Shown: piece by piece, positions 16,549-62,900 of the stretch | Layout of the letters: every line of letters starts with the position of its first letter | Numbering within the stretch: position 1 is the first letter of the stretch | Source of the DNA: Xenococcus sp. PCC 7305 | GTDB lineage: Bacteria > Cyanobacteriota > Cyanobacteriia > Cyanobacteriales > Xenococcaceae | Assembly (NCBI RefSeq): GCF_000332055.1 | Contig: NZ_ALVZ01000230.1 | Span: 1 to 64,000 of the forward strand | DNA: 64,000 nt | Direction: 5' to 3' | The notes under the pieces: model-generated | The model's database searches: none | Seen by the model: the letters and a program-made list of their open reading frames with translations, nothing else | Told to the model about the DNA's origin: nothing | Program-made: the position numbers and the translations under genes

Positions 16549-16881
<333 letters not shown>

Positions 16882-36971: not shown

Positions 36972-37490
36972 TGCCTTCTGCCTTCAAGGGCGAAGCCCCG
37001 TTAAATTCAGTGGCTCGAAAAGAAATTCTATTTCGTAATTATTTATACTAAATTATCTTATAAAGTATAATTTTTATCTATAAACATAGATTGTTATTGA
37101 TGCATAAATATCCGAGAATGGAGTCATAAAGCTCTTGCATTGGTAAAGTTAAAAATTCTTCTAAAAACTTAATTTTTTCTTAGCTTTTTGCTATGTTAAA
37201 CCTACTCAAAATACCAGTGCTTTAGGTTAAAAATACCCATGTCTTAACCCATATGGAAGTGAGATTGCCTTTGCTATAGGGGTTTTGCTAATTTGAGTAC
37301 ACCCTTAATCAGTTTAATCCAAGCCTCAAAAATTCTTTTATTAATAATAATCTGGTATAAGTTTCTTAGGCTAGCCCAACAGTATTATCAATAGTCTTTT
37401 ACGTTGCTCTTTGTTCTTTGTCTATCCTCAAATCATTTATTAACAAAAGACAAAAGACCAAATTACTAATAATCAAATTAGGAGAATTTT
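36972..37490 (+). promoter_or_regulatory. Upstream region of the pnt operon with operator-like box and extended -10
   Basis: No gene is seen. TTGAGTAC at 37293-37300 lies 60 bp (start to start) before TGGTATAA at 37353-37360, an extended -10 (TG-N-TATAA form) within TCTGGTATAA. The same two elements with the same 60-bp spacing precede the NafY operon at 50261 and 50321. TAGGAGA before the pnt ATG is the ribosome-binding site. AAAAGAC-type heptamers lie near 37441. Confidence 0.6.
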
Positions 37491-38642
37491 ATGAAAATAG
37501 CAGTTTCCAAAGAACAGGAGCTAGGAGAGCTTCGCGTAGCCCAAGTCCCCAATACTGTATCTCGTCTAGTCAAACAAGGCTTTGAGGTTTGGGTAGAAGC
37601 AGGAGCTGGTGTTGGAGCCGGCTATGATGATGCTGCCTATGAAACAGCAGGAGCCAAGATCATTGACAACCCCGTTGTTCTATGGGAAGAAGCAGATATC
37701 CTGCTTAAAGTTCAGCCTCCTGGCAGGCGGGATGGTTGGGCGGAGATCGACATGCTGCGACCCGGGGCAACTCTGATTAGTTTTCTCGATCCTTTAAGCG
37801 ATCCTTTGATAATACAACAGCTTGCCCAGCGACAGGTTACAGCCTTCAGCATGGAATTGATTCCTCGTACAACCCGTGCTCAAACCATGGATGCCTTGTC
37901 TTCGCAGGCGAACATTGCCGGTTACAAATCTGTGTTGCTAGCAGCCGCTAGTTTACCGCGAATTTTCCCTATGATGACTACCGCAGCAGGAACAATTCCT
38001 CCGGCTAAAGTTCTAGTTTTGGGTGCAGGGGTTGCCGGGTTACAGGCGATCGCAACTGCTCGAAGATTGGGTGCAGTCGTAGAAGCTTTTGATATTCGTC
38101 CGACAGTGAAAGAACAAGTTCAAAGTGTTGGTGGCAATTTTATTGAGATCGCCCTTGAAGAACCAACTGAAGCGGAAGGAGGTTATGCCCAACAAGTTGG
38201 GATGGATACCCAAGAGCTAATTTGTCAGGGTTTGAGCTCCTATGTTGCCAAGGCCGATGTGGTTATTACTACAGCTCAAGTACCAGGGAAGCCCGCACCT
38301 TTATTAATTACGGAAGAGACAGTTTCTCAAATGAAACCCGGCTCAGTAATTATCGATCTTGCCGCAGAAAGCGGTGGGAACTGCTCTTGTAGTGAAGCAG
38401 GCAAAGATGTTAACTATCAAGGGGTTAATATTCTTAGTCCGACGAATTTGCCGAGTACAGTACCAGTTAATACCAGCCAGATGTATGCCAAAAATCTTTT
38501 AAACCTGGTGGGCTATTTAGCCAAGGATGGCGAATTGCAGCTCGATTTTGATGATGACATCACTAGTAGTGCTTGCGTTACCCATGGTGGAGAAATTCTC
38601 AATCAAAGAATTAGAGAAGCATTATTAGTTATTAGTCATTAG
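37491..38642 (+). CDS. pntAA: NAD(P) transhydrogenase alpha subunit, part 1
   Basis: NAD(H)-binding domain I of proton-translocating transhydrogenase, 383 aa, resembling alanine dehydrogenase. It begins KIAVSKEQELGELRVAQVP and has the NAD-binding VLVLGAGVAGLQAIATARRLGA near 177-198. TIDLAAESGGNCS-like VIIDLAAESGGNCSCSEAG follows. The three-gene layout (pntAA, pntAB, pntB) is the cyanobacterial and Rhodospirillum form. The complex uses the proton gradient to make NADPH from NADH, useful for reductant supply to nitrogenase. Confidence 0.95.
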   Translation: MKIAVSKEQELGELRVAQVPNTVSRLVKQGFEVWVEAGAGVGAGYDDAAYETAGAKIIDNPVVLWEEADILLKVQPPGRRDGWAEIDMLRPGATLISFLDPLSDPLIIQQLAQRQVTAFSMELIPRTTRAQTMDALSSQANIAGYKSVLLAAASLPRIFPMMTTAAGTIPPAKVLVLGAGVAGLQAIATARRLGAVVEAFDIRPTVKEQVQSVGGNFIEIALEEPTEAEGGYAQQVGMDTQELICQGLSSYVAKADVVITTAQVPGKPAPLLITEETVSQMKPGSVIIDLAAESGGNCSCSEAGKDVNYQGVNILSPTNLPSTVPVNTSQMYAKNLLNLVGYLAKDGELQLDFDDDITSSACVTHGGEILNQRIREALLVISH

Positions 38643-38684
38643 TTATGTTGCGGGTTTTTGGTTATTTATTTAGGAGTGGGTCTT

Positions 38685-38975
38685 ATGGAAGCAGGATTAC
38701 TTACTGGCTTAGTCGTTTTTGTCTTAGCATCATTTGTGGGGTTTGAGGTGATTAATAAAGTCCCTCCCACATTGCATACGCCCTTAATGTCTGGTGCTAA
38801 TGCTATTTCTGGTATTTCCGTGGTTGGGGCCTTACTAATTGCTGGAGTACCGGAGTGGAATCTAACAACTATTTTGGGTTTAATTGCGATCGTGTTAGCG
38901 ACTGTCAATGTTGTGGGCGGTTTTTTGGTAACGGATCGCATGCTGCAAATGTTTAAGAAGAAGGAAATAGCCTAG
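38685..38975 (+). CDS. pntAB: NAD(P) transhydrogenase alpha subunit, part 2 (membrane)
   Basis: A 96-aa membrane subunit with three hydrophobic spans. It has FVGFEVINKVPPTLHTPLMSG, the conserved Pro/His segment of transhydrogenase domain II, and ends with LVTDRMLQMFKKK. ATG 38685, preceded by AGGAG, is preferred to an in-frame TTG at 38658. It lies between pntAA and pntB. Confidence 0.93.
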   Translation: MEAGLLTGLVVFVLASFVGFEVINKVPPTLHTPLMSGANAISGISVVGALLIAGVPEWNLTTILGLIAIVLATVNVVGGFLVTDRMLQMFKKKEIA

Positions 38976-38984
38976 GGGAATAGC

Positions 38985-40391
38985 ATGATGAATACATATT
39001 TGAACACGGGAATTGAAATTGCTTATTTAGTTGCAGCATCTTTGTTTATTCTCGGATTGAAAAAATTAGGTTCCCCTGCCACAGCTCGTCAGGGAAATTT
39101 CCTGGCAGCAGGAGGGATGCTAGTTGCAATTATTGCCACTTTATTAAATCAGTCCGTACTCAATTATGAATTGATTTTAGTTGGGATTATTGCTGGCTCG
39201 TTGATCGGCGCGATCGCAGCTCAAAAGGTAGCCATGACGGATATGCCGCAAATGGTTGGTATCTTCAACGGGGTCGGTGGTGCGGCTTCTGCTTTAGTAG
39301 CAGTGGCTGAGTTTTGGCGCATACTTAACGCTGAGGGCACTGTTTCTTTAGATGCGACATTTATTGCAATCTTGGGTGTTTTAATCGGTGGGGTGACTCT
39401 CACCGGCAGTTTACTAGCCTTTGCTAAACTACAAGGCTTAGTTTCAGGGTCTCCTGTTACTTTTCCATTCCAACAACCTTTCAATGCTTTGCTCTTAGCG
39501 AGCTTCTTGGCTGGCAGCGTTTACTTATTAATCCAACCAGAAAACCCCGCAATTTTTCTAGCTTTAACCGCCATATCTTTACTTTTTGGTGTTTTATTTG
39601 TGCTGCCTATTGGTGGTGGAGATATGCCCGTAGTAGTTTCTTTGTTAAACTCATTTTCGGGTTTAGCTGCTAGTGCTGTAGGGTTTATTCTCTACAATAA
39701 TATGCTGATCGTCGCAGGGGCTTTGGTTGGGGCTTCGGGGTTAATTTTGACCCAAATCATGTGTAAAGCCATGAATCGACCATTAACTAATGTATTGTTT
39801 GGCGCATTTGGTGGCGATAGTACTGCTGTTGGTGATGCAGGTGGTGCGGAAATCGAGAAGACCTACCGTTCTATTGACAGCGAAGAGGGAGCGATGATGT
39901 TAGGTTATGCCCGCTCGGTAGTAATTGTTCCTGGTTATGGTATGGCAGTAGCTCAAGCTCAACATGGGGTCAGAGAATTAGCCGCCCAACTGGAAAAAAT
40001 GGGTGTGGATGTTAAATATGCAATCCATCCTGTCGCCGGGAGAATGCCAGGACATATGAACGTACTCTTAGCTGAAGCCAACGTTCCTTATGATCGCCTG
40101 TACGATATGGACGATATTAACACTGAATTTGATCGCGTTGATGTCGCTCTGGTAATCGGAGCTAACGATGTGGTTAATCCCGCAGCCCGTAATGACAATA
40201 GTAGCCCCATTTATGGGATGCCCATTATTGATGTGGATAAAGCCCAACATGCCATTGTAATTAAGCGTAGTATGAGAACTGGTTTTGCAGGGGTAGATAA
40301 CGAACTATTTTACAAGGACAAAACCACCATGCTCTTCGGCAGCGCACAGGATGTTGTCTCGAAATTGGTGGGAGAAGTTAAACAATTGTAG
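38985..40391 (+). CDS. pntB: NAD(P) transhydrogenase beta subunit
   Basis: A 468-aa subunit with about eight to nine N-terminal spans (domain II) and a C-terminal NADP(H)-binding domain III. The latter has VVIVPGYGMAVAQAQH, HPVAGRMPGHMNVLLAEA, VGDAGGAEIEKTYRSID and VINPAARND-like IGANDVVNPAARNDNSS. Two consecutive ATGs (38985 and 38988) are possible starts. It completes the transhydrogenase operon. Confidence 0.96.
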   Translation: MMNTYLNTGIEIAYLVAASLFILGLKKLGSPATARQGNFLAAGGMLVAIIATLLNQSVLNYELILVGIIAGSLIGAIAAQKVAMTDMPQMVGIFNGVGGAASALVAVAEFWRILNAEGTVSLDATFIAILGVLIGGVTLTGSLLAFAKLQGLVSGSPVTFPFQQPFNALLLASFLAGSVYLLIQPENPAIFLALTAISLLFGVLFVLPIGGGDMPVVVSLLNSFSGLAASAVGFILYNNMLIVAGALVGASGLILTQIMCKAMNRPLTNVLFGAFGGDSTAVGDAGGAEIEKTYRSIDSEEGAMMLGYARSVVIVPGYGMAVAQAQHGVRELAAQLEKMGVDVKYAIHPVAGRMPGHMNVLLAEANVPYDRLYDMDDINTEFDRVDVALVIGANDVVNPAARNDNSSPIYGMPIIDVDKAQHAIVIKRSMRTGFAGVDNELFYKDKTTMLFGSAQDVVSKLVGEVKQL

Positions 40392-41707: not shown

Positions 41708-41746
41708 AATGTGACTTGTTCAACTACCTTCGTTAAAGCAGATTTC

Positions 41747-42847: not shown

Positions 42848-42861
42848 AAAAACTTCTCTGG

Positions 42862-42892
42862 AAAAATCAATGTTTCTCTACATTGGTTTTTT
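42862..42892 (+). terminator. Intrinsic terminator of gcvT
   Basis: AAAAATCAATGT at 42862-42873 pairs with ACATTGGTTTTT at 42880-42891 (one G-U pair), with a 6-nt loop and a T-run in the 3' arm. Confidence 0.8.
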
Positions 42893-43083
42893 CTCTTAGG
42901 AAATCATACTAAGGGATTTTAATCTTTTTTGAAAGCAAATTTGTAGGTTGTAATCGCATATTAATATATTCTTTCTCTAGTTAATCGTAACTTTATAAAA
43001 ATCAGATTTTATTGGCAATTAATTTATCTTCCATTATTAAAATGACAGATAAAATACAGTGATAAATATACTGAATTTTTTAT

Positions 43084-44154: not shown

Positions 44155-44212
44155 AAAAATATGCGATCGCCTTTGGTAACTAGAGCGATTTCTCTGGAAA
44201 TCCTCACTTTGC

Positions 44213-47200
44213 CTAAGTTGCATGGTGTTTTAGGCTAGCTAAACTTTGCTGGACAGCCTTATGATTTGGTTGTAACCTAAGAGCGCTTTGGTAAGCGGTT
44301 ATCGCTTCTGCTACTTTCCCTTCTTTGCTCAACGCGTCTCCCAAGTTTTTATAGATTCCAAATGGGTGCTTAGGATTTAAGACAATTGCTTTTTGATAAC
44401 TAGATATAGCTGCCAGTAAATCACCATTTTTGCGCTGAGCATCACCTAATAAAGAATAAATATCGGGCTGATTGGGCCCCAAGGTAACTGCCTCTTGAGA
44501 TATGGCTATCGCTTCTGGGAAACGATCTAATTGATTTAGTATAGTAGTCAGAACTTTATAGACATTAAACTGCTGAGGATTCAATTTTAAAGAGCGATAA
44601 TAAGAATTTATTGAGCTCTCTAGGTCGCCCTGCTTACGTTGCGCATTGCCCAAGCTGTTATAAGCTTTATCGGATTTGGGGTCTAGCTCTAGAGCTTGCT
44701 GAAAAAAGGCGATCGCTTCTTCTGGCTGCTCCATTCTAGATAAAGTGTTTCCCAGAGCCATACATACTGGGTATTGTCGGGGATTGATGGCTAAAGAATC
44801 AAGATAAGCTTGTCTGGCCGCCGGAAAATTCTGCTGCTGACTATGATCATTGCCCAGTTTTTTATAATAATTTGCCGATTGATTGACATTTAATGCGATC
44901 GCCATATCGTAACTTTGAACTCCGGCTTCTGTCTGACCACTCCTGATCTGAGCAGAGCCTAATTGGCAATGAAGCTCAGGGTTATGGGGATCTAACTTGA
45001 TAGCTTCAAGACAAATTTTGATAACTTCTTCTGTCTGATTCAATCTATTTAGTGCCAATGCCAAATCTTGGTAAAACCAAAAATTTGCTGGTTCGAGTGC
45101 GATCGCTTTTTGATAGTTGGTTACTGCTTCAGCAAAATTATTCTGTTTCGTCTGGGCTTTTCCTAGCAAAAAATAAAGTTCACCATTACTCGTCTCCAAC
45201 TCTAGAGCTTTTTTGTACGCAACTATCGCTGCGGATAAATTTTCCTGATCAGCCAAGGCAATCCCCAGGTTTTGATAGAGGGCAGCAGATTGTTGAGGAT
45301 CAACTGCGATCGCTTTTTGATAGCTAATAATAGCTCTTGCCATATCTCCTTTCTCAAACTGAGAGTTACCCCGGCCAAGATAAACAGCAGCATTTTCTGG
45401 TTGCGATCTAATAGCGTTAACCACCTCGACTGGGACAATTGTTGTGGTAGAACCCTTCTGCTTAAACCAGGTTACTCCTTCTTCGACCAGATCCAGTTCT
45501 AACAAGTAACGACCCTCTGTTAACGGTGCGGTTACAGTCAAAGATAGTTCAATTTCCTCTCCTGGAGGCAAATCCTGGGATAAGTCTACTCTCCCATCAG
45601 ACCATTGAATGAGATTCCCCTTCTCATCTAGCCAATGATTACCTAGAGTGATGCCACTAATTTGAGTTTCTTGCCATAAAACTGGGCTAATATTCTTGAC
45701 TGTTACGGGAATGGCAACTGATTTTCCAGTTGCAAAATTGGTCAATTTAGGGAAAATCATCTGTGCTTGATATGCTCTCCTTGGTAAAAACTGCGGGGTA
45801 GCCGCCAATGATGCTTCCTCAATATAGGAATGTAATTTTTTGGTAAGCAATTGAATATTGGGTTCACTGAAATACTGCCCATGACTGCAAGGAAGCAAGT
45901 CAACGGATAATTCTCCTGTATAAAATTTGTGCCAGCCGAGTTCTGGCTTTTGGAAATATTTATAAGGGTTGAGATGGCTGTCGCGACCAAAAAATAGAGA
46001 CACTCTGCCTGTATAGATTTGGGGGATAAACCTTTCTAGTAAACATAATAGAGTTATCTGTTTTCCTTGGCGTTGGAGTTGCTGGGCAATTTCAAAGATA
46101 ATCAAGGTACTTTGACAGTTGCCGCCCAAGAGATAGGGCCCATTAGGGTCTATAGTTAAAATCTCTGCAACATAGTGACTTGCCAAAGCTTTGATGTTAT
46201 CTGGAGTATATTTCATCAAGAGATGACCCGATCTCATCCCATAGGTCGGTCGGTCTGCTCCTAAATACTTTGCCAGTTGGGATAATTCTCGAAAACCCTG
46301 TAGGCACCAAAAAAGAGGTTGGGCTTGACCCTTAGTGTTCAGACCGATGATCAAAGAGTTTGGCTGGACTCTTTTGCCCTGCCATCCAGCAGTGTAGGCT
46401 AGTAATTGATGATAAAGTTCCTCACTCAGTTCTGGATGTTTTTCTACTTGTGTAGATGTTAGTGATTTTTTAGCGGTTGTTACTATTTCTTGATCGAGTA
46501 TCTTAGCAAGCTCGGCAATCGTACCCAATTGAAAGAGTGCAGCCAGAGGTACTTTTCTCTTAAATACCTGTTCAATTTCTGCTATCAGACGCACAGATAA
46601 GAGGGAATGTCCCCCAAGGTCGAAGAAGTTATCATAGATGCCGACTTCATGATCTAACCATAATATTTTTGCCCAAATTTCTGCTAGTTTTTGTTCTGTA
46701 GAGTTGCGAGGTGCGACATAAGTTTCTGCCGCTGTTTGCCTGACTAGGTTAACTTTGGCTAGTGCACGACGATCTACTTTGCCACTAGGGGTTAAAGGCA
46801 TTGCTTCTAGAGGAACTAGAGCAGAGGGAATCATATAATTGGGGAGCTTCTGCCTCAAGAAACCCCGTAGTTCTTCTAGAGAAGGAACCTGTTCTTGGGT
46901 GGGGATAATATAGGCGATTAGGCGTTTATCTCCGGGGCAATCTTCGCGGACTAATACGATACTTTCCTCTATATGGGAATGTTGTGTCAGGATGGTTTCG
47001 ATTTCTCCTGGTTCGATACGATAGCCGCGAATTTTCACTTGATTATCGATTCTACCCAAGAATTCAATGTTGCCATCTCGCAAATAACGAGCCAAGTCCC
47101 CAGTTTTGTAAAGTCGTACCGAATTATCGAAGGGATTGACAATAAATTTCTCTTGATTTGAGTCTGGACGGTTGAGATAACCTCTGGCTAAACTAGATCC

Positions 47201-49807
47201 TCCGATGTAAAGTTCTCCAGAAACTCCTATGGGAACTGGTTGAAGCTGCGGGTCTAAGATGTAAATCTGGGTATTCGCGATCGCCCGCCCAATTGGTGGT
47301 AGATTCGACCAACTGGTTACCGGATCACCCAAAGTATATGCTGTTGCTACATGGGTTTCTGATGGGCCGTAATGATTACTGAGGCGGCAATGGGATAGAC
47401 GAGTAAATAATTTAGCGATCGCAGAGGTGATCTGGAGCTGTTCTCCGGCAGTAATAACTTCTTGCAGATTTGTCGGGATAATAGGAGATCGCGCACTGAC
47501 TTCTGCTAGTTGCTGTAGGGCAATAAAAGGCAAAAATATTCTTTCGATCGCCTCTTCTACAAGTATCTGCCACAAAGCATCTGGATCTTTGCGAATGGAT
47601 TCGGTTGTCAATACCAAAGTCCCTCCAGAACAGAGGCTAGCAAAGATTTCCTGTAGGGAAACATCGAAACTTATGGGGGCAAATTGTAAAGTTTTGCGAG
47701 GTAATGGTTGCCGATGATTTTGCCAGTAAATGAGATTGCTTAGGCTGCGATGTTCCATCGCGACACCTTTGGGCTTTCCTGTCGAACCAGAGGTATAGAT
47801 GATATAGGCTAAGTTGGTTAGGGTTGCTATATTTTTTGGGTTATCTGCACTTTCTCGGTCTATACTTTCCCAATGACTATCTAAAAAGACTAGATTGCTC
47901 TTATGGCATGGCAAATCTGCGGATAATTTTTCTTGAGTTAAAAGAACTTCTACCTCAGCATCGAATAACATAAACTCTAAGCGATCGCGAGGGTAGGTGG
48001 AATCTAAGGGGACATAAGTTCCTCCCCCTTTGAGGATCGCTAATAAGCCGACTATGAGCAATGGCGATCGCTCTAAAAAAATGCCAACCTTGCTTTCGGG
48101 CTGGACTCCGAGTTTTTTTAGGTAATGTGCGAGTTTATTAGCCCGATTATTGAGTTCTAAATAAGTTATTTCTCTGCGATCGCCATTGATGGCTATCGAC
48201 TTAGGCCATTGTAAAGCGATCTCGTTGGGAGTTTTGGCAACTTGAGCTTCCCATAACTTATGGACGCAAAGCTCTTGAGGTAAAGTTTCTACGGTTTGGT
48301 TCCACCCTGTCAGTAATTGCTGGCGTTCGGAGGGGGTGACAAGAGGCAAATCAACTAGGCGTTGTTCGGGGTTGGCCACTATTGCTTGCAATAAAGTTTG
48401 AAAATGACCCAGCATTCTAGTAATTGTCGCAGCGTCAAAGAGATCACTACTATATTGAAATAGGCAATTAAGTCCTTGGGCTGTTTCGGATATCGATAGG
48501 GTGAGATCGAATTTGGCAATCTTCGGCAGGTTTCCCAATCCAGAAACGACAAACTTTGCTTCCTCTGCGCTTAATGTGGCGGCTAAATTAGGAGTATTGA
48601 CCAGGTTGAACATCACATCAAACAAAGGGTTACGGTTGAGGTTCCGTTCTATGCGAAGTTCCTCTATCAGTTTTTCAAAAGGGAGATCTTGATAGGTATA
48701 GGCTTCTTGGGCTATTTGACGTACTTTTCTCAGTAATTGTCTAAAGGTGATCTCCCCTGTAAATTTGGTGCGTAATGCTAAGGTGTTAGCAAAAAAACCA
48801 ATGATTCCTTGAATTTCCTTGCGGTTGCGGTTGGCAATAGGAGTGCCGACTATAATATCCTGAGCTCCCGTGTAGCGATAGAGAAGAGTTTTAAAGACTG
48901 CTAGCAAGGTCATGAACAAGGTTGCGCCTTCTTGTTTCCCTAGAGCTTTGATTGCTTTACTTAGTTCGGTCGCTATCGTGAAACGTTTCACCGCACCTTG
49001 ATAGGTTGCAATAGCAGGACGAGGGCGATCGCTTGGGAGTTGGAGAATCGGGATTTCCCCGCCTAGTTGTTTTTTCCAGTAAGTAAGATGGGATTCAATA
49101 ACTTTTCCTTTCAGCCAGTTTCTTTGCCAATAAGCAACATCGGCATATTGGATGGTCAGAGGTGTGAGAGGGGGAGGTTGTTTGCTAACACAGGCTTGGT
49201 AAAGTTTATTGAGCTCCTGCATAAAGATCGGACGCGACCAACCATCATAGATAATGTGATGCATAGCTAGGAGCATGACATATTCTGTCTCGCTGAGATG
49301 CAGAAGTTTGACTCGCCAGGATATTTCTTTGGTGAGGTCGAAAGGTTGGGTCTCTTCCGCTTTTATATATTCTCCTATTTGAGCTTTTCTTGCGGCTTCG
49401 TCTAGTTGAGAGAGATCGATAATTGGCAACTTGAACGCCTGATGGGTTGCGATCGCTTGAATTGGTGAGCCATCGACAATGGGAAAGGTTGTACGTAGGG
49501 TTTCGTGACGTTTTGCTAGTTGATTAAAACTTTGTTCTAAGGCAGATATGTTGAGTGAGCTGATAAGTTTTGAGGATACTAAGCTTTGGTAGGCGATGCA
49601 TTGAGGATCTAACTGTTGAATGAACCACAGTCTTTCTTGGGCAAAAGAGAGGGGAATTTTTTGTTCTCTAGAGATTGGTTTAATTGGAGGTGCTTGACGT
49701 TGAGACTTAATAACAGAGTGAATAGTTGACCAGAATTCTTGTTGTGATGTTTGGGAAGAGCGTTTGTTTTCTTTTGACTTAAGTCTTGCTGAAGAAGGTA
49801 ACTCCAT
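44213..49807 (-). CDS. Single-module NRPS with thioesterase-like, Ig-like and TPR regions
   Basis: A 1864-aa protein. The condensation domain (about 45-470) has intact HHIIYDG (His183-Gly189). The adenylation domain (about 500-1030) has YTSGSTGKPKG near 672, FDVSLQEIF and LYKTGDLARY. A carrier domain has FDLGGHSLL with its Ser near 1067. A thioesterase-like alpha/beta-hydrolase follows (about 1140-1330), with nucleophile elbow GGNCQS, so Cys not Ser, and a CSHGQYF histidine. An Ig-like beta segment spans about 1345-1455, and roughly eleven TPRs run from about 1470 to the end. Asp of FDVS is the conserved amino-acid-binding position, so an amino-acid substrate is likely. No other NRPS gene, transporter or phosphopantetheinyl transferase is nearby. 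Confidence 0.88.
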   Translation of the reverse strand: MELPSSARLKSKENKRSSQTSQQEFWSTIHSVIKSQRQAPPIKPISREQKIPLSFAQERLWFIQQLDPQCIAYQSLVSSKLISSLNISALEQSFNQLAKRHETLRTTFPIVDGSPIQAIATHQAFKLPIIDLSQLDEAARKAQIGEYIKAEETQPFDLTKEISWRVKLLHLSETEYVMLLAMHHIIYDGWSRPIFMQELNKLYQACVSKQPPPLTPLTIQYADVAYWQRNWLKGKVIESHLTYWKKQLGGEIPILQLPSDRPRPAIATYQGAVKRFTIATELSKAIKALGKQEGATLFMTLLAVFKTLLYRYTGAQDIIVGTPIANRNRKEIQGIIGFFANTLALRTKFTGEITFRQLLRKVRQIAQEAYTYQDLPFEKLIEELRIERNLNRNPLFDVMFNLVNTPNLAATLSAEEAKFVVSGLGNLPKIAKFDLTLSISETAQGLNCLFQYSSDLFDAATITRMLGHFQTLLQAIVANPEQRLVDLPLVTPSERQQLLTGWNQTVETLPQELCVHKLWEAQVAKTPNEIALQWPKSIAINGDRREITYLELNNRANKLAHYLKKLGVQPESKVGIFLERSPLLIVGLLAILKGGGTYVPLDSTYPRDRLEFMLFDAEVEVLLTQEKLSADLPCHKSNLVFLDSHWESIDRESADNPKNIATLTNLAYIIYTSGSTGKPKGVAMEHRSLSNLIYWQNHRQPLPRKTLQFAPISFDVSLQEIFASLCSGGTLVLTTESIRKDPDALWQILVEEAIERIFLPFIALQQLAEVSARSPIIPTNLQEVITAGEQLQITSAIAKLFTRLSHCRLSNHYGPSETHVATAYTLGDPVTSWSNLPPIGRAIANTQIYILDPQLQPVPIGVSGELYIGGSSLARGYLNRPDSNQEKFIVNPFDNSVRLYKTGDLARYLRDGNIEFLGRIDNQVKIRGYRIEPGEIETILTQHSHIEESIVLVREDCPGDKRLIAYIIPTQEQVPSLEELRGFLRQKLPNYMIPSALVPLEAMPLTPSGKVDRRALAKVNLVRQTAAETYVAPRNSTEQKLAEIWAKILWLDHEVGIYDNFFDLGGHSLLSVRLIAEIEQVFKRKVPLAALFQLGTIAELAKILDQEIVTTAKKSLTSTQVEKHPELSEELYHQLLAYTAGWQGKRVQPNSLIIGLNTKGQAQPLFWCLQGFRELSQLAKYLGADRPTYGMRSGHLLMKYTPDNIKALASHYVAEILTIDPNGPYLLGGNCQSTLIIFEIAQQLQRQGKQITLLCLLERFIPQIYTGRVSLFFGRDSHLNPYKYFQKPELGWHKFYTGELSVDLLPCSHGQYFSEPNIQLLTKKLHSYIEEASLAATPQFLPRRAYQAQMIFPKLTNFATGKSVAIPVTVKNISPVLWQETQISGITLGNHWLDEKGNLIQWSDGRVDLSQDLPPGEEIELSLTVTAPLTEGRYLLELDLVEEGVTWFKQKGSTTTIVPVEVVNAIRSQPENAAVYLGRGNSQFEKGDMARAIISYQKAIAVDPQQSAALYQNLGIALADQENLSAAIVAYKKALELETSNGELYFLLGKAQTKQNNFAEAVTNYQKAIALEPANFWFYQDLALALNRLNQTEEVIKICLEAIKLDPHNPELHCQLGSAQIRSGQTEAGVQSYDMAIALNVNQSANYYKKLGNDHSQQQNFPAARQAYLDSLAINPRQYPVCMALGNTLSRMEQPEEAIAFFQQALELDPKSDKAYNSLGNAQRKQGDLESSINSYYRSLKLNPQQFNVYKVLTTILNQLDRFPEAIAISQEAVTLGPNQPDIYSLLGDAQRKNGDLLAAISSYQKAIVLNPKHPFGIYKNLGDALSKEGKVAEAITAYQSALRLQPNHKAVQQSLASLKHHAT

Positions 49808-50369
49808 AGGTCAATTGGTTGATAATATTATTATTTTTAATTTTTTTATCTTAAATAAAATAAATTTATTTGAGATCGAAGTTTTTAGATATCGATTTTA
49901 TCCAGAAAAATATTCCATGTCAAAGAATAACAAAGGAGCTTTAAAATATTGAAAATAGCTTAAAATTCATTAGATAAGTTTGACAATGCAAAAAATAAAG
50001 ATTAGCTTGTAACTTTACCGAGCAGGGAAATAAATAAAATAAACAATCTCTTGACACAACAAATAAAGAATAGGTAATGCTAAACAAGTAATAATGCATT
50101 GTGGTAGTCAATAAGATACCAAATCAAACCTATGTGATTTTCGACTCTAGATCTAAAACTCGAAAACCACCTTATTAAATACCTGCACCCTAATTAAAAA
50201 TACTCGTATCCCGATCCCAATTAAATCCCTCAAGACCTTTAAATTATTGGGCTGAAGACTTTGAGTACAAGCCTAATAATATTAATGCAAATGGCTCAAA
50301 CTCTTATTTTTCAAGCGGTCTGGTATAAATCAATGATTGGTAATTGATAACAAACCCAGATAGAATATT
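49808..50369 (+). promoter_or_regulatory. Region between the NRPS and NafY genes, with TTGAGTAC box and extended -10
   Basis: A 562-bp divergent intergenic region without a credible gene. TTGAGTAC at 50261-50268 is 60 bp (start to start) before TGGTATAA at 50321-50328, predicting transcription from about 50335 towards the NafY-like gene. Element order and spacing equal those at 37293 and 37353 before the pnt operon. The AT-rich part near 49810-50050 should contain the NRPS promoter. Confidence 0.6.
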
Positions 50370-51101
50370 ATGAGTGCACAGCCTATTTCTAATGAAGTCG
50401 CGCTGAGGATTGCCTTAGCCGCTAAGGTATTGCCTAATACATCCGTCAAAGATTTAATCGAAGCTCTACAAACCAATCTTGACTATGAAATTACCGAAGA
50501 AACTCTTGGTAATCTTACAGTCACCCAATTAAAAAGGTCTTTTGGCAATATTTATGAAGTTGATAGCGAATGGGAAGGCGAAGATGCCGACAATAGCGAT
50601 ATAGCAAATTTTAAAGAAGCAGTAAGAATATTGTGGGGAGAAAAAGGTCAATGCGAGCAAGAATTGCCGATCAAACCATATCAAGAAGGAGATATGCCCA
50701 ACTCGATTAGAATTGCCGTGGCATCTAATACGGGGGAACAGTTGGACGGGCATTTTGGTTCTTGTCATCGCTACCTAATTTATCAGCTATCAGTAGATGA
50801 AATTAGATTGATCGCTGTCCGCTCGGCAATAGAGGCCGATCTTAGTGAAGATAAAAATCAATTCCGAGTCAATTTAATTAAGGATTGTCCAATTCTCTAT
50901 GTTTCATCCATCGGTGGCCCGGCTGCGGCGAAAGTTATTCAAGCCTATATCTATCCTATGAAAATAGAAAAAGGTGGTGCGATCAGAGAAATATTGGCAG
51001 ACTTACAAAATGCGATCGCGACTTCTCCTCCACCCTGGTTAGCCAAGATTCTAGGAGTCGGTACAGGTAAAAGGGTGAAAAATTATACGGCTGTTAGTTA
51101 G
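50370..51101 (+). CDS. NafY-like / NifX-family cofactor-binding protein
   Basis: A 243-aa two-domain protein. An N-terminal helical domain (about 1-100, ALRIALAAKVLPNTSVKDLIEAL) resembles the sterile-alpha-like domain of NafY. The C-terminal NifX/NafY domain (about 112-230) has IRIAVASNTGEQLDGHFGSC, with the His of the cofactor-binding loop, YVSSIGGPAAAKVIQ and PPPWLAKILG, the last also present in NifX at 13509. NafY binds apo-MoFe protein and FeMo-co. It is the first gene of a second nif-linked operon, 33 kb from the end of the main cluster. Confidence 0.85.
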   Translation: MSAQPISNEVALRIALAAKVLPNTSVKDLIEALQTNLDYEITEETLGNLTVTQLKRSFGNIYEVDSEWEGEDADNSDIANFKEAVRILWGEKGQCEQELPIKPYQEGDMPNSIRIAVASNTGEQLDGHFGSCHRYLIYQLSVDEIRLIAVRSAIEADLSEDKNQFRVNLIKDCPILYVSSIGGPAAAKVIQAYIYPMKIEKGGAIREILADLQNAIATSPPPWLAKILGVGTGKRVKNYTAVS

Positions 51102-51142
51102 TTAGCTATGAGCCATTGGTTACTCAAGACAAAGAACGCATT

Positions 51143-51487
51143 ATGACCATCAAACAAAATAAAGAGCGTATCCTCGAAATTCAGCGGATAACTGGGCTAA
51201 GACCAACCCATTTTGCGGATTTGGTTCGTGTTGCTCAACTGATTTACGATCCTAGTGGGGGAGTATCAGGGAAGATAGTTGAGGTTGATTGGTTAAGTTT
51301 TGGTATTCCGAGAAAGGTTGCCAGCAATTTGCGATCGCTAGGGGAGAAATATCAATATGAATCTCCTCATGTCGAAATTGACCTAGTTTGGGATGAATTA
51401 ACTCCAGAAACTCGTAGTTGGTTTATCGCGCACAAAAGTGTTTTATGGGAGATTGAAGAATCATTTCCTGCCTTGGATGAAGATTAA
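51143..51487 (+). CDS. Unknown protein of the NafY operon
   Basis: A 114-aa soluble protein from ATG 51143 (MTIKQNKERILEIQ); an in-frame TTG at 51116 would add 9 residues. It is acidic, with ITGLRPTHFADLVRVAQLIYD and a Trp-rich C-half (VDWLSFGIP, VWDELTPETRSWFIAHKSVLW). I recall similar small proteins among cyanobacterial nif genes but cannot name a family. No metal motif. It is 41 bp after the NafY-like gene and 28 bp before the next. Confidence 0.65.
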   Translation: MTIKQNKERILEIQRITGLRPTHFADLVRVAQLIYDPSGGVSGKIVEVDWLSFGIPRKVASNLRSLGEKYQYESPHVEIDLVWDELTPETRSWFIAHKSVLWEIEESFPALDED

Positions 51488-51515
51488 AACTACTAACCAC
51501 TAACAATTAAAAATT

Positions 51516-52157
51516 ATGCAAGTCTTAGGAGCGATTAATAAATTTGAGCAATGCGTCCTCAACATCTCTTTGATCAATATTTGCAATCAAGAGAGTCATG
51601 TTGGTCAGGAAATGCGCCAAAAATATAACCAATGGCAGGGAGAAAGAGACGAAACGGTTTATAATCCTTGGTTGGATCTCCATCAGTTTACGATCTATTT
51701 ACCGCACCCCGATCAAGAGTACGAAAACATTACTTTAGAAGCAGGTTTAACCAAAGGTTACAACGTCGAAGTACAGCCAGTTCAGAATCCTAGTCAATTA
51801 CCCTATAAAATTCCCCGAGGTGCACATTTTGTTGTGGTACTGCAACAGCAAAAGTTGGCATCCGACTTTAAAATTGTCGCCACAGGGATGTTTATTCGTC
51901 CCCTAGGAGTTCTAAGTCTCGATCTGATTGTGGATTCTGAGCTTGGGGAATATCAATCGATTATGATCAAACATCCCATTATTCGGGAATATCCCGAAGG
52001 TTTGGAAGACAAGCTGAATTTATTTCTTGCAGGAGAGCTTCCCAGTGAAGAACTGCCCCAAATAGTTAGATATGTCGACCAAGCTTTTAATCAAGACTAT
52101 AGACAGCCTTCTTGGCATAACATCTATTTAGCGGCTACAGGATTTGCCGGATGTTAA
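51516..52157 (+). CDS. Unknown 213-aa protein of the NafY operon
   Basis: A 213-aa soluble protein. It has FTIYLPHPDQEYENITLEAG, PYKIPRGAHFVVVLQQQK and MFIRPLGVLSLDLIVDSELG, and ends GFAGC. No signal peptide or membrane span. The sequence reads as a conserved globular fold, with four Cys at most, two near the N-terminus and one at the very end. Not recognised. Co-transcription with the NafY-like gene and the ferredoxin 49 bp downstream suggests a nitrogenase accessory role. Confidence 0.65.
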   Translation: MQVLGAINKFEQCVLNISLINICNQESHVGQEMRQKYNQWQGERDETVYNPWLDLHQFTIYLPHPDQEYENITLEAGLTKGYNVEVQPVQNPSQLPYKIPRGAHFVVVLQQQKLASDFKIVATGMFIRPLGVLSLDLIVDSELGEYQSIMIKHPIIREYPEGLEDKLNLFLAGELPSEELPQIVRYVDQAFNQDYRQPSWHNIYLAATGFAGC

Positions 52158-52206
52158 TGGTTGTTCATCTTTACAATTTATGAATGCTTTTTATTAGGAA
52201 TCAGGC

Positions 52207-52503
52207 ATGGCTACTCATAATGTGACTTTAATTAATTACAGTAAAAATTTTCAGCAAACTATTGCAGTTCCCGATGATGAGTATATTCTTGGGGAAGCTG
52301 CGGAGGCCGGGATCAAAGTTCCCTTTGAATGCGTGGTCGGTGCTTGCGCTACTTGTCAGGGCAAGATTGTCTCTGGCACAGTGGATCAATCAGAACAAAT
52401 GTTTTTAAGTGATAAACAAATTGCTGAAGGGTATATTTTAACTTGTGTGGCTAAACCCACTTCTGATTGCACTATTGAGGTCGATCTAGATTCTTACCTA
52501 TAA
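52207..52503 (+). CDS. Second FdxH-like [2Fe-2S] ferredoxin
   Basis: A 98-aa plant-type ferredoxin with CVVGACATC plus a distal Cys in ILTCVAKP. It resembles FdxH at 16567 (EQMFLSDKQIAEGYILTCVAKPTSDCTI against [23 protein letters not shown]; compared in pieces) but lacks the basic KGKRKK N-terminal patch and the SR of the cluster loop. It may serve a different partner or redox potential. AGGAATCAGGC precedes the ATG. Confidence 0.88.
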   Translation: MATHNVTLINYSKNFQQTIAVPDDEYILGEAAEAGIKVPFECVVGACATCQGKIVSGTVDQSEQMFLSDKQIAEGYILTCVAKPTSDCTIEVDLDSYL

Positions 52504-52545
52504 AATGTGAGTTCGATGAGTATAAAATTTACTAGTTGTGAATAA

Positions 52546-52569
52546 GGATTTGGGGATTTGGGGATTTGG
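52546..52569. repeat. GGATTTGG octamer repeat
   Basis: Three perfect GGATTTGG units in the 142-bp gap between the ferredoxin and the DUF364 gene. Confidence 0.85.
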
Positions 52570-52645
52570 GAAAAAGCCTATTACTTTGTTGTTCAACTTG
52601 GGAAATTTAATCCAAAAAAAATTCGTCGAACTGACTTTATAGAAG

Positions 52646-53419
52646 ATGATTAGCCCCAGAGAAATCTACAATCTTTTGTTAGATTCTAGTCACACAGAAA
52701 CTAAAATCAGAGAAATCATTATTGGTTTAACTTGGACCTTATGTAATGCAGAAGGAGTTGGTTTATGTATGAGTCCAGCTATTCCCACCCGCACCTTGCC
52801 TTGGTCAGGAACTTTAGTGGATCGCCCATGTAATGAATTGTCGCTGTGGATTCGTTCTTGGGACAATTATCAAGCCACAGTAGGCATGGCAGTGATTAAT
52901 GCGGCGATTAATTCTAGTTCTGATTTACCTGCTAAAGCAGAGCCGATATCTCTTCCAGGTTCCTCCAATTTAGCAGTTTTTGAGCATTTTCTGCCGTTGA
53001 TTCGGGGGCAAAAGGTGGCGGTTATTGGTCGCTATCCTGGGTTATCTCGTTACGAACAAGAAGTCTCAATGACTGTCATTGAACGCAAACCAAATTTTCA
53101 AGATTTGCCCGATCCGGCTGCGGAATACATCTTACCCGAAGCCGATTGGGTTTTTCTTACAGCGACTTCCATTCCCAATAAAACTTTTCCTCGTTTGGTG
53201 GAACTGTCCCAAAATGCCAAATTGGTCTTGATGGGCCCGACTGTTCCTTGGTTACCCGATTTGGCAGACATGGGAATCGATTATTTAGCAGGAGTTGCAG
53301 TAACTAATTCCTCTGCCTTGAGACAAACTGTTGCCGAAGGTGGTGGGGTGAGGATTTTTGAAACGGGCATTCAGTATCGAGTTTTGGAACTGTCGAAAGA
53401 AGTAATAAGTAATAAGTAA
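52646..53419 (+). CDS. DUF364 / DUF4213 Rossmann-like protein
   Basis: A 257-aa protein. An N-terminal DUF4213-type part has IREIIIGLTWTLCNAEGVGLCMSP and TLPWSGTLVDRP. A C-terminal DUF364 Rossmann-like part has GQKVAVIGRYPGLSRYE, the acidic EADWVFLTATSIPNKTFPRL and VLMGPTVPWLP. The family is linked to metal or molybdenum handling and occurs with some alternative nitrogenase genes. The last five residues (VISNK) and the stop codon are encoded by an AATAAGT tandem repeat, so the C-terminus has been rewritten by the repeat. Confidence 0.8.
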   Translation: MISPREIYNLLLDSSHTETKIREIIIGLTWTLCNAEGVGLCMSPAIPTRTLPWSGTLVDRPCNELSLWIRSWDNYQATVGMAVINAAINSSSDLPAKAEPISLPGSSNLAVFEHFLPLIRGQKVAVIGRYPGLSRYEQEVSMTVIERKPNFQDLPDPAAEYILPEADWVFLTATSIPNKTFPRLVELSQNAKLVLMGPTVPWLPDLADMGIDYLAGVAVTNSSALRQTVAEGGGVRIFETGIQYRVLELSKEVISNK

Positions 53420-53459
53420 TAAGTAATAAGTAATAAGTAATAAGTAATAAGTAATAAGT
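53404..53459. repeat. AATAAGT tandem repeat, eight units
   Basis: Eight perfect AATAAGT heptamers in 56 bp, covering the stop codon (53417-53419) of the DUF364 gene. The same heptamer covers the nifE stop at 11528. Confidence 0.95.
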
Positions 53460-53484
53460 ATTACTATCAACAGAGGTCAAGATT

Positions 53485-53901
53485 TTGGATAACAAACGCT
53501 TAATTATCTATCACAAGCAAGCTGCCAGTGCACGTATTCTATTTTTTGCCTTAAATGGTTCGGTTTGTCATTGTAATGGTTTACCTGCTGAGTCAAAAAT
53601 AGTTGACAGCTGTATTGAAGGAGATCGAGTTATTGACTATCCAGAAACCTTAATTCCCAGTCTTAAGGAACGATGGAAACTATCTAGCGATATTCTAGAG
53701 ATGGAAAAAACATTTATGGCGATCGCAGAGAGTGGAGATTTAGCGATCAATATCTATTTGGCTCGTTTCACGACGGTCGATCCTCCTCGCGAACAACTAA
53801 AACATCTAGGCGGCAAGTTTATTCCTATTGTTGATGCTCGCACCTTTCCCCCAGTCGAATTAAAATTATTGGGCTTGGTTTATTCATTTTTGATGGACTA
53901 A
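53485..53901 (+). CDS. Unknown protein downstream of DUF364
   Basis: A 138-aa protein with a TTG start (53485), preceded by AGAGGT at a suitable distance; no in-frame ATG gives a better start. It has IIYHKQAASARILFFALNG, two close cysteines in VCHCNG, and a C-half FTTVDPPREQLKHLGGKFIPI. It is not recognised. It is the last gene of the detached nif-linked operon, and the AATAAGT array lies before it. Confidence 0.6.
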   Translation: MDNKRLIIYHKQAASARILFFALNGSVCHCNGLPAESKIVDSCIEGDRVIDYPETLIPSLKERWKLSSDILEMEKTFMAIAESGDLAINIYLARFTTVDPPREQLKHLGGKFIPIVDARTFPPVELKLLGLVYSFLMD

Positions 53902-53969
53902 TCAAAGTTGTTTCTGGGAAAGAACAAACCATTGACTTAGGGGCGCATCGCGATACACCCCCACAGTAA

Positions 53970-54584
53970 TTAAACCTTAGATATTTCTACATCTGCTGAA
54001 GTTACGAACCATGTATCAAGATTTTGGGGACTAATTGGTTCTTTTAAGACCACTATATAGAGGTCATCTTTTTTTTCATGAGAAATCAAGTAATAAGTTT
54101 GCTTTTCCTCTACTTGATACCAAGCTGTGCCATTCCCCTCAGGATCTTGTTCCTTTAAAACATCTATTCCATCCTCACTAACCATAAAGGCCGTACCAGA
54201 AGAACTAGTAACCTGCAACTTTCGGTTGATCTGCCAACGTTTTTCAAAGCCATCTTTTAAATTTTGCGGAATCGCTTCGTGGACAAAAGCTAGAGCTTCT
54301 TCTTGGTGGGGACTTATTGAATTTGAGCCTTTATAGGAACCAGGTAAATTTTTAAATTCAATGGGGGATTCTTGGGGATTGTTTAATCCCTGCCATCCCG
54401 GACGCCATTTGCTCGTGAACTGTTCGATAATTGCTGTTCCATCATCAATATTTGATTCAATATTATTTTGCAGCCATTGCAAAGCATCCTGTTGGATTGC
54501 TTGTTCTTTTGGAGAATTATATTTGGCATAAGATACAAACGCATCTCTTAGGAAACTGGGATTTAATGTCTTGGAAGTAACCAT
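53970..54584 (-). CDS. Unknown 204-aa protein
   Basis: A 204-aa soluble protein on the minus strand, convergent with the nif-linked operon. It has SFLRDAFVSYAKYNSPKEQA near the start and a Trp-rich middle (KWRPGWQGLNNPQ). A second half has alternating beta-type sequence (LQVTSSSGTAFMVSEDG, TYYLISHEKKDDLYIVVLKE). No signal peptide, span or metal motif. I do not recognise it. Composition is coding-like throughout. Confidence 0.6.
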   Translation of the reverse strand: MVTSKTLNPSFLRDAFVSYAKYNSPKEQAIQQDALQWLQNNIESNIDDGTAIIEQFTSKWRPGWQGLNNPQESPIEFKNLPGSYKGSNSISPHQEEALAFVHEAIPQNLKDGFEKRWQINRKLQVTSSSGTAFMVSEDGIDVLKEQDPEGNGTAWYQVEEKQTYYLISHEKKDDLYIVVLKEPISPQNLDTWFVTSADVEISKV

Positions 54585-55954: not shown

Positions 55955-57001
55955 TCAACAAATTCTGGGTAATTGTTCTCCGCTTTGCATATCTACAATA
56001 CGCCTTGAACCAATTTTACTTTTGAGAACTACTAAAGAGTTGTTATCTCGAACAACTTGACCAATAATTTCTGCATTGTTATCGAAATGGGAGCGCATAA
56101 TATCCAAAGCGCGATCGCGATCTTTTTGGGGAATGAAAGCGACAAACCTACCTTCGTTGGCAACATAAAGAGGATCGAAACCCACTATTTCACAAGCTCC
56201 CTGCACATCTTCTCTCACAAGAATCGAATTCTCATCAATTTCGATGCCGACCTGAGCAGCAGCAGCAATTTCGTTTAAGACACTGGCTAAGCCACCGCGA
56301 GTCAAATCCCGCAGACAATGAATTTCAATGTCGGCTGCGAGTAACTCTAAAACTAAATCGGCTAAAGGTGCAGAGTCGCTTTCAATAGTGGTTTCAAATT
56401 CTAATCCTTCTCTGACTGCCATAATAGCGATCCCATGTCGTGCCAAATCCCCATTGAGTAGCAATAAATCTCCTGGTTGTACGGACTGAGGAGAGATCGC
56501 CTGATTATGTTCGATAATCCCGACTCCAGTAGTATTAATGAAAATACCATCACCTTTGCCTTTGTCCACTACTTTAGTATCTCCAGTCACAATCTGTACC
56601 TTAGCGATGACTGCTGCTTGCTGCATCGACTGTACTATTTGCCACAAAGTTTCTATTGATAATCCTTCTTCTAAGATAAAACTTGTGCTGAGATAAAGCG
56701 GACGTGCTCCCGACATTGCCAGATCATTTACCGTACCATTAACTGCTAAAGAACCAATGTCTCCACCAGGAAAAAACAAAGGATTAACCACATAAGAATC
56801 GGTGGTAAAAGCTATTTTGTTGCCTGCAAGCTGTAGCGTTGCTGCATCATGTTGAATTGTATTTGCTGTTCCAAAAGCCGTTAAAAACATTTGGATCAAT
56901 TGCTGCATCAACCGGCCCCCACCACCATGGGCTAGCAGAATATGAGGATATTTTTGCAAAGAAATCGGACAAGTGAGATTAAAATTTTGGTGATCGTTCA
57001 T
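55955..57001 (-). CDS. hypE: Hydrogenase maturation factor HypE
   Basis: Makes the cyanide ligands of the [NiFe] site by dehydrating a thiocarbamate on its C-terminal Cys. The 348-aa product has the glycine-rich [13 protein letters not shown] near the start, [30 protein letters not shown], and ends PRIC, the required terminal Cys. It is the last gene of the hox-hyp run and follows hypD by 13 bp. Confidence 0.96.
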
Positions 57002-57014
57002 AATATTGGCCTGT

Positions 57015-58112
57015 CTAATCTTTAGCTAACTGTCGATAACGATAGTAAGCAGCGCAAGCACCCTCAGAAGAAACCATGGGCGCACCCAAAGGCTTTTCAG
57101 GAGTACAATGTTTGCCAAAAGCTGAACATTGATGGGGTTTTTTAATTCCCTGAAGAATTAATCCACTGATACAATCTAAAGATTCTGATGTTGTTCCCTT
57201 TTCCAGCTTAAATTTGTTTAAGGCATCAAATTGACTGTATGATTCTTGCAATCTCAAGCCACTATGGGGAATAAGACCAATGCCACGCCATTGACGATGA
57301 GCAGTGGCAAATACTTCTGCAACTAATTTTTGTGCAGTCTTGTTCCCCTCAAAACTAACAGAACGACTATACTGATTTTCCACTTCTGTTGTATCTGCTT
57401 CTAATTGTTTAACGCACATATAAATTCCCTGAAGAATGTCTAGGGGTTCAAATCCAGTTACTACAATAGGTATCTGATATTTTTGGGCGATCTCATTGTA
57501 TTCTCTATATCCCGTTATCGTGCAAACATGACCAGCAGCTAAAAATCCTTGAACACAGTTATCAGGAGAAGATAAAATCAGTTCCATTCCTGGGGAAACG
57601 AGGACGTGAGCTACTAACAGAAAAAAGTTCTTAATTCCTAATTTCTCGGCTTGATATACTGCCATTGCTGTTGTGGGAACGGTCGTTTCAAACCCCACTG
57701 CGAAAAAAATAATCTGTCTGTCTGGGTTTTTGCCAGCAATCTTAACTGCATCTAAAGGAGAATAGACAATTCGGATATCTCCACCCATTGCTTTAACTGA
57801 TCGCAAATCTTGGCTTTGACTACCAGGAACTCTTAGCATATCTCCAAAGGAGCAAAAAATAACCTCCCGACGAGAGGCCAGAGCGATCGCCTTATCAATT
57901 AAATCTACGGGAGTAACGCAAACAGGACAACCAGGGCCATGAATTAAGGTGATGGACTGAGGTAATAATTCGTCGATGCCATATTTAACAATAGAATGAG
58001 TTTGTCCACCACAAATTTCCATAATTTGCCAAGGACGAGTGGTTATTTGTGCGATCGCTTTGACATATTGATCGGCTATCTTAGCATCGCGATATTCATC
58101 AACAAATTTCAT
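57015..58112 (-). CDS. hypD: Hydrogenase maturation factor HypD
   Basis: Fe-S scaffold that, with HypC, assembles the Fe(CN)2CO unit. The 365-aa product has the redox motif [20 protein letters not shown], and the C-terminal [4Fe-4S] Cys cluster ([31 protein letters not shown]). ftsH ends 6 bp upstream, so hypD is probably cotranscribed with it. Confidence 0.96.
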
Positions 58113-58118
58113 AAATCT

Positions 58119-60071: not shown

Positions 60072-60137
60072 ATATTTACAACGCTCTCTAATCACAAAGA
60101 TAGATATTAAGTTTGAGGAAGTTGTGAGATTTTCTGG

Positions 60138-61592: not shown

Positions 61593-61627
61593 TTGATTTA
61601 ATTAGTCATTCCATTGTTTATAGATCT

Positions 61628-62128
61628 CTATCCACTACACCAATTTTCATAGATGCTCTCGGACCCAATTTCCCATTTATTTTCTGTTAATTCGCAGGGG
61701 TACAGTTCAGCTAATTCTTCTAGTTTTTGAGATGTTAATGTGGGTTTAATTGGAGTTAAACAATCGGTTCTTCCCAAAATATCAGTTAGAGAAACGATAC
61801 CAAGTAGCCTGTCTCTAATAACTGGTGCAGTGCGAATTTTGGCTCTGGCAAATAATTTAGGAATATGTTCTACTGCTAGATCGGGATTAACAACAATACA
61901 AGGCTTGGTCATCAATTCACAAACATAAGTTTCTTGGGGGTTTTTAGCGTTAGCAACTGCTTGCGAGATATCAGTTGCCGTGATGATTCCATATGCATCT
62001 TGATCTGAAGTGCGATCAACAATTAAAGCTTTGATATTATGTTGCTCCATCATTTTGGCTGCTTCGGCAATCGTCGCTAAGCTATCAATGGTAACTATAT
62101 TGGTGGTCATAATATCTGCTACTTTCAT
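61628..62128 (-). CDS. Two-CBS-domain protein within the hox operon
   Basis: A 166-aa protein made of a pair of CBS domains (VADIMTTNIVTIDSLATIAEA, then VCELMTKPCIVVNPDLAVEH) and a short acidic tail ending SIYENWCSG. CBS pairs bind adenosine nucleotides and sense energy charge. CBS genes between hox subunits are known in some cyanobacteria, with unknown purpose. Position between hoxY and hoxH suggests regulation of the hydrogenase by ATP or NADH status. GGAGGCATCTATG-type ribosome-binding site. Confidence 0.85.
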   Translation of the reverse strand: MKVADIMTTNIVTIDSLATIAEAAKMMEQHNIKALIVDRTSDQDAYGIITATDISQAVANAKNPQETYVCELMTKPCIVVNPDLAVEHIPKLFARAKIRTAPVIRDRLLGIVSLTDILGRTDCLTPIKPTLTSQKLEELAELYPCELTENKWEIGSESIYENWCSG

Positions 62129-62857: not shown

Positions 62858-62900
62858 TTTTTTAATAGTTGGTAATCAGTATCTAGTTATATAATCTATA

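Follow-up and report, generated by a model that had tools for sequence, protein, structure and literature searches.

Genes of the nafY operon

The stretch of DNA analysed here, called the window, comprises 64,000 nucleotides of the cyanobacterium Xenococcus sp. PCC 7305 and is part of a 110-kb contig (C230, NZ_ALVZ01000230.1) of a 5.93-Mb genome. It holds six open reading frames (ORFs) on a common strand at 50370-53901, led by nafY and referred to below as the nafY operon (Table 1). An earlier sequence-only reading had placed six same-direction genes here, about 33 kb from the main nif genes, and both statements hold: all six are present, and the hesAB-fdxH part of the nif genes ends 33.5 kb away from the operon, and modBC is at a distance of 27.5 kb. 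The spacers between the ORFs measure 41, 28, 49, 142 and 65 bases, and spacing is tight from nafY through the ferredoxin gene. Judged by the protein of 213 amino acids (aa), the closest named relatives are Xenococcaceae. In comparison with locus L137 of Xenococcus sp. MO_188.B8, the ratio of nonsynonymous to synonymous substitution rates (dN/dS) is 0.05-0.11 for five genes and a weaker 0.36 for the 138-aa gene, and because this indicates purifying selection we take the six ORFs to be real genes. In gene order, Pfam returns DIMCO_N plus Nitro_FeMo-Co, none, none, Fer2, DUF4213 plus DUF364, and none above cut-off.

Table 1. Features of the nafY operon, its promoter and the pnt genes in the window
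Feature	Position	Strand	Basis
NafY, 243 aa	50370..51101	+	domains, solved relatives, His
114-aa family, no Pfam or NCBIfam match, all-helical model	51143..51487	+	family and structure searches
213-aa family, most constant neighbour of NafY, alpha/beta model (pLDDT 88)	51516..52157	+	
[2Fe-2S] ferredoxin, own clade (CVVGACATC), not FdxH	52207..52503	+	Pfam, PDB scores, tree
DUF4213/DUF364 protein	52646..53419	+	Pfam, 3l5o match
138-aa family, TTG start	53485..53901	+	ORF, dN/dS, relatives
Promoter element A of nafY operon, two AAATACYYGYA-like half-sites 21 bases apart	50177..50210	+	scored element 50197-50210
Promoter element B, TTTGAGTACAAGCCTAAT then TTAAT	50260..50286	+	
Element C, extended -10-like (TCTGGTATAAATC)	50319..50331	+	
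A-B-C block 5′ of pntA (A 37230, B 37292, C 37351)	37230..37363	+	
pntA / 4TM subunit / pntB transhydrogenase, apparently co-regulated with the nafY operon	37491..40391	+	

By its sequence, the first gene is a genuine NafY, which bears out the NafY-like label of the earlier reading, where it was taken for a binder of the iron-molybdenum cofactor (FeMo-co) and apo-protein. An N-terminal SAM-like DIMCO_N domain (94.9 bits) and a C-terminal FeMo-co domain (59.1 bits) both exceed their Pfam cut-offs. The C-terminal domain matches Azotobacter vinelandii NafY (1p90) at 1e-45 and NifX (9ian) at 6e-15, and the N-terminal domain matches 2kic at 6e-12. The protein is NafY rather than NifX by 159 against 59 bits, and its NifX equivalog score of 105.6 falls under the cut-off of 112. 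His128 and Cys132 are invariant in 11 of 11 aligned NafY proteins, His128 standing within a DGHFGSC stretch common to 1p90. The window protein thus has both domains and the conserved His of A. vinelandii NafY (1p90, 2kic); unlike the latter, it is accompanied by 114-, 213- and 138-aa partners that match no family in Pfam or NCBIfam. Azotobacter NafY delivers FeMo-co to apo-NifDK (PMC13128457; this and the other PMC sources are cited for their accessible portions). In the non-heterocystous Leptolyngbya boryana, nafY (LBDG_23680) is sited outside the nif cluster and its product, which overlaps NifX functionally, carries the same His/Cys pair; a nifX nafY double mutant does not grow on N2 (PMC6428710). 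The window gene has a comparable location.

For the 213-aa protein, AlphaFold gives a confident alpha/beta model with a predicted local distance difference test score (pLDDT) of 88.3, and for the 114-aa protein, which starts with the ATG at 51143, a fair all-helical model (pLDDT 80.3). Compared with PDB folds at an expectation value (E) of 0.001, neither model found a match (best VIA Z 2.5 for the 213-aa model, best Z 2.2 for the 114-aa model), which does not by itself prove a new fold in either case. A PDB sequence search returned nothing for the 213-aa family and three chance-level rows only for the 114-aa protein. Remote kinship of the 114-aa or 213-aa protein with NafY, or of the 213-aa with the 138-aa protein, was considered and given up at a probability under 1%.

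The fourth gene had been described as a second FdxH-like ferredoxin, and this description fails. Against PDB entries the protein scores 124 bits with 1rfk and 88 bits with the heterocyst FdxH 1frd, solved PetF-type ferredoxins being better matches than FdxH. In a tree it groups with the ferredoxins of L137, L138, L144 and L155, all loci that carry the 213-aa gene, with support of 100/100, and this clade is separate from the window ferredoxin at 16567 behind hesAB. Scores and tree together rule out FdxH identity.

The assignment of the fifth protein to DUF364 stands, with DUF364 (134.6 bits) and DUF4213 (68.3 bits) both over cut-off. Both domains are also those of Dhaf4260 (3l5o), matched at E 4e-30, for which the structure paper proposes an enzyme tied to metal chelation and to the transport of metals, molybdate among them (PMC2954201). 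Dhaf4260 associates with metal transport genes (PMC2954201); similarly, in L122, L123 and L125 the DUF364 gene adjoins modA on a stretch that also has nif genes, modA and modBC flanking it in L123 and L125. Nine residues of the Dhaf4260 pocket were mapped by hand in 14 cyanobacterial sequences, six being kept and three changed (Gly39 to Cys, Ala or Ser, Arg42 to Pro, and Asp180 to Asn), while a tenth, Thr133, could not be placed. The window also has an 8-base repeat 5′ of the DUF364 gene (52546-52570) and a perfect 7-base tandem repeat of 8.7 copies at its end (53400-53460).

Distribution and gene order among relatives

The families were searched in an order sample of 195 genomes, 55 with nifD at E 1e-120 and 58 counted as nif-bearing by a match to nifD or NifX (G017, G096 and G156 enter by NifX with no nifD match; G005, at 1.4e-4 only, does not). 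Co-occurrence with nif had been put forward as a check on the operon, and intact genes of the three unassigned families are found in nif-bearing genomes only: 213-aa in 16 of 16, 114-aa in 27 of 27 and 138-aa in 7 of 7. NafY (16 of 17, p 1e-8) and DUF364 (20 of 21) come close to this, so that families common in genomes without nif, which would have counted against the proposal, did not turn up. The term intact leaves out G061 and G089 (213-aa), G158 and G179 (DUF364) and G121 (NafY, in two pieces). NafY of G158 is counted, having an open frame of 274 aa with no stop, and 8 of the 21 DUF364 genes counted as intact (G007, G046, G055, G085, G112, G123, G146, G156) have a stop in the matched stretch and open frames of 250-261 aa.

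A phylum sample of 263 genomes, overlapping the order sample, gave the same picture for the two families: nifD is present in 31 of 31 genomes with the 114-aa protein and in 5 of 5 with the full-length 213-aa protein, four of 55 nifD matches being less than 50% identical and not taken as nitrogenase. Part-length remnants of the 213-aa gene persist in two genomes without nifD (G089, G383), and five nif-bearing genomes outside the order have neither the 213-aa nor the 114-aa protein. Two small genomes, G171 and G181 (2.8 and 3.0 Mb), retain 114-aa and DUF364 genes alongside nifD; we take such sizes to fit diatom endosymbionts.

Gene order was compared across the 26 named loci that have the 213-aa gene, some of which reach contig ends, making the neighbour counts minima. 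In 13 of them, a Leptolyngbyaceae genome and Elainella included, nafY stands 5′ of the 213-aa gene, either adjacent to it or separated from it by the 114-aa gene. Other neighbours of the 213-aa gene are an ankyrin gene plus a SagB-like gene (5 of 26), the ferredoxin gene (4 of 26), the 138-aa gene (2 of 26) and the DUF364 gene (1 of 26). Outside the window the full set is seen in L137 alone, where the row reads pntA, 4TM gene, pntB, nafY, 114, 213, TPR, ferredoxin, DUF364, 138, with the DUF364 gene 7 bases after the ferredoxin gene. The DUF364 and 138-aa genes mostly lie elsewhere in the other genomes and are looser partners of the operon. The six genes therefore stand as a nif-linked accessory operon and not as a fixed unit, and a fixed six-gene system was rejected on the rarity of the complete set.

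A TPR gene, identified by Pfam, separates the 213-aa and ferredoxin genes in Xenococcus sp. MO_188.B8 (L137:10704-11252) and in L138 (L138:10726-11211), where the window has a gap of 49 bases; the genome of the window has no TPR gene of this kind apart from one weak hit at another place (E 1.5e-4). On the contig of nifV in L154, the 114-aa gene is next to the 213-aa gene. The window has about 10 kb between pnt and nafY (40391-50369), with GNAT, gcvT-like and DUF4915 genes and a gene for a 1864-aa nonribosomal peptide synthetase (NRPS)-TPR protein; since nafY follows pntB by only about 220 bases in L137, this is likely an insertion or rearrangement.

Some further neighbourhoods were recorded. 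The five loci with the ankyrin gene and the SagB-like gene, which is of the nitroreductase family, are L144, L147, L150, L155 and L156, and some SagB-like loci also hold conserved 83-89-aa and 121-aa proteins without known family. In L096-L099, L101 and L136, of which five belong to presumed heterocystous genomes, a Lin0512-family gene is found next to the 114-aa gene, and some loci of this type add AbrB-like membrane and DUF1838 genes. Downstream of the operon, the minus strand of the window encodes a 204-aa protein without clear domain (53970-54584), found at the same place in L137 with 89% identity, and then hydrogenase genes (55955-63707). The latter comprise hypE-like and hypD genes and, beyond an FtsH-like protease gene, a hox-like set of large, small and iron-sulfur subunits with a CBS-domain gene inside.

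A promoter element common to nafY and pnt

Terminator and sigma-70 scans of 50000-54000 gave no signal exceeding that of shuffles. The shared promoter architecture of the nafY operon and pnt, already noticed in the sequence-only reading, is confirmed as a block of three elements, A, B and C. Element A consists of AAATACYCGTA-like half-sites and element B has the general form TTTGAGTAC..TTAAT 5′ of both nafY and pntA, and the A-B/B-C spacings are 63/59 for nafY and 62/59 for pntA. The block occurs at no further place in the window on either strand. A matrix of elements A and B was trained on the promoters of nafY and pnt alone, those of the window and of loci of like kind in six relatives (L137-L143, L157); its background maxima are 15.5 in random sequence and 22.4 in the window's own genome outside the window (1.12 Mb). 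Outside the training set, the highest scores precede nifB (43.7) and nifP (37.9) of L082, nifP being a cysE-type serine acetyltransferase. In L093 the scores are 39.9 for nafY and 35.8 for a CnfR-like gene at a distance of 706 bases. L090 and L091 each have a site that faces a CnfR-like gene, about 950 bases from it in L090 (30.5) and about 930 bases in L091 (34.4); nafY itself scores 36.0 in L090 and a weak 15.8 in L091. The nafY gene of L080 scores 30.2, and the nifP-like gene of L154, at 22.0, is inside the background. As would be expected of a CnfR regulon, the element is shared with nifB and nifP of another diazotroph (L082).

A CnfR-like regulator gene lies near nafY in L084, L090, L091 and L093, and is divergent from it in the last three. 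The encoded proteins (533-534 aa) carry a 4Fe-4S stretch at the N-terminus and a helix-turn-helix at the C-terminus, both by matches below curated cut-offs. The CnfR element is reportedly defined in a 2016 paper by Tsujimoto. The published description of CnfR agrees with the CnfR-like proteins of the relatives, and nifB promoters have an extended -10 without a -35 (PMC8510180). CnfR-activated nifB promoters combine conserved upstream elements with this extended -10 (PMC8510180, PMC5943405), as the A-B-C block does, the likeness being one of layout. NtcA-type GTA-N8-TAC sites were sought as another candidate, and none is present in the 400 bases 5′ of nafY, pntA, nifB, nifH and hesA. Because the element is found 5′ of nifB, of nifP and of a CnfR-like gene in some relatives, the sequences indicate a nif accessory operon that is probably under the control of CnfR.

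Several observations weigh against this reading. Outside the training set, the element is clear 5′ of nafY in only 3 of 16 loci and weak (15.7-15.8) in two, and within it L137 and L157 carry the element 5′ of pntA and lack it 5′ of nafY, while L138 and L142 have an opposite-strand PBP-like gene between the element and nafY. Upstream of nifB in the window the score is a sub-threshold 8.4 (at 385), for which random expectation is 0.006, but the real window is richer in such scores; the regions upstream of nifH, nifE, hesA and modA score below zero. Background peaks of 17.8-19.6 occur at unrelated sites (L114, L142, L158, L212), and a search of 1.18 Mb of the window's own genome turned up no CnfR-like gene. 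In L. boryana, nafY is largely constitutive, with no operon described in the accessible portion of the source (PMC6428710), whereas the window nafY has nif-restricted partners and a promoter like that of a relative's nifB and nifP. The distribution p-values are uncorrected for relatedness, and neither the 114-aa (p 0.11) nor the DUF364 gene (p 0.76) co-occurs with NafY beyond what nif itself accounts for. Two genomes without nifD or NifX have accessory genes, G158 with an apparently intact NafY (and a DUF364 fragment) and G169 with an open DUF364 gene; both are of the same genus as the nif-less G121, whose nafY is split, and in all three nif was likely lost with the accessories lingering.

Possible roles of the operon

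We lean, by a little, towards a nif accessory operon around NafY with a CnfR-type activated promoter common with the pnt transhydrogenase. Its gene content, its near-restriction to nif genomes, the linkage of nafY to the 213-aa gene and the common promoter element are directly seen. Apparent remnants in genomes without nif also speak for it, namely the split nafY of G121, the DUF364 fragment of G158 and the part-length 213-aa genes of G089 and G383. When CnfR turns on nif, the nafY operon would be transcribed with it, presumably through CnfR binding at the promoter. NafY would then hold FeMo-co via the conserved His and dock on apo-NifDK via the SAM-like domain, as is known for NafY elsewhere. 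The 213-aa protein may work with NafY on the immature MoFe protein, perhaps in physical contact, and the 114-aa protein could help in assembly or stability as another factor specific to nif. The dedicated ferredoxin and the DUF364 protein fit electron and molybdenum supply, the former possibly giving electrons to a reduction needed to complete the cofactor or the P-cluster and the latter serving molybdenum handling. A role in late maturation of the MoFe protein is our best guess for the step served. Repair, cofactor storage and late insertion, the roles suggested in the sequence-only reading, are inferences from what NafY is known to do.

As a frequent neighbour of NafY that is confined to nif genomes, the 213-aa protein would be a partner in MoFe-protein completion. 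One could go further and see in it an unrecognised NafY partner, drawing electrons from a ferredoxin clade of its own, that would complete or guard the MoFe protein in non-heterocyst fixers and belong to one CnfR-controlled set with the transhydrogenase; we offer this fuller version tentatively, as possible rather than probable.

One alternative explanation for the grouping of these genes is a regulon neighbourhood only, where common CnfR control would gather genes for separate nif needs (a FeMo-co carrier, molybdenum supply, an electron donor and unrelated small proteins) with no joint complex or step. The rarity of the full set, the scattered DUF364 and 138-aa genes, the want of a specific tie of the 114-aa and DUF364 genes to NafY and the same promoter on the metabolic pnt operon are all in its favour, but it sits poorly with the adjacency of nafY and the 213-aa gene in half of the named loci and with their co-occurrence beyond nif (among nif genomes, 12 with both, 4 and 4 with a single one and 38 with neither; p 2.6e-6), and we regard it as unlikely. 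A redox or oxygen-protection module, in which the ferredoxin and the 213-aa protein with flavin oxidoreductases would maintain nitrogenase or the sites of its assembly in a reduced state in cells with no heterocysts, draws on the five loci with ankyrin and SagB-like genes (the ferredoxin gene close in two) and on family f30, taken as heterocystous from its interrupted nifD, where NafY and the 213-aa protein are absent in 12 of 12 nif genomes against a 213-aa presence in 16 of 46 others (p 0.012, uncorrected), yet the window operon has no SagB or ankyrin gene, is led by a cofactor carrier and includes a 213-aa protein with no recognisable domain or fold match backing a redox role, so that we consider such a module improbable.

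Possible implications for nitrogenase assembly

That NafY can be sited outside the nif cluster is already known from L. boryana (PMC6428710). The operon itself had been called not described as such, and our literature search, whose coverage left out most subscription papers, agrees: it found no description of the operon, of the nif restriction of the three families, of the separate ferredoxin clade, or of a promoter element common to nafY, pnt, nifB, nifP and a CnfR-like gene, and nothing linking DUF364 with nitrogenase or CnfR with transhydrogenase. The genes of the operon are also not mentioned in the accessible portion of PMC11070190. With the common element, pnt joins the likely nif regulon. 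The 114-, 213- and 138-aa proteins are good candidates for new nitrogenase assembly helpers, since they have a known cofactor carrier nearby, are near-exclusive to nitrogen fixers and lie behind a nif-like start signal. The transfer of nitrogen fixation to other organisms is limited by the assembly of nitrogenase in oxygen-producing cells. Should the 213-aa and 114-aa proteins take part in this assembly, they would be missing pieces that transfers of the nif cluster would omit, because their genes are sited elsewhere in the genome.

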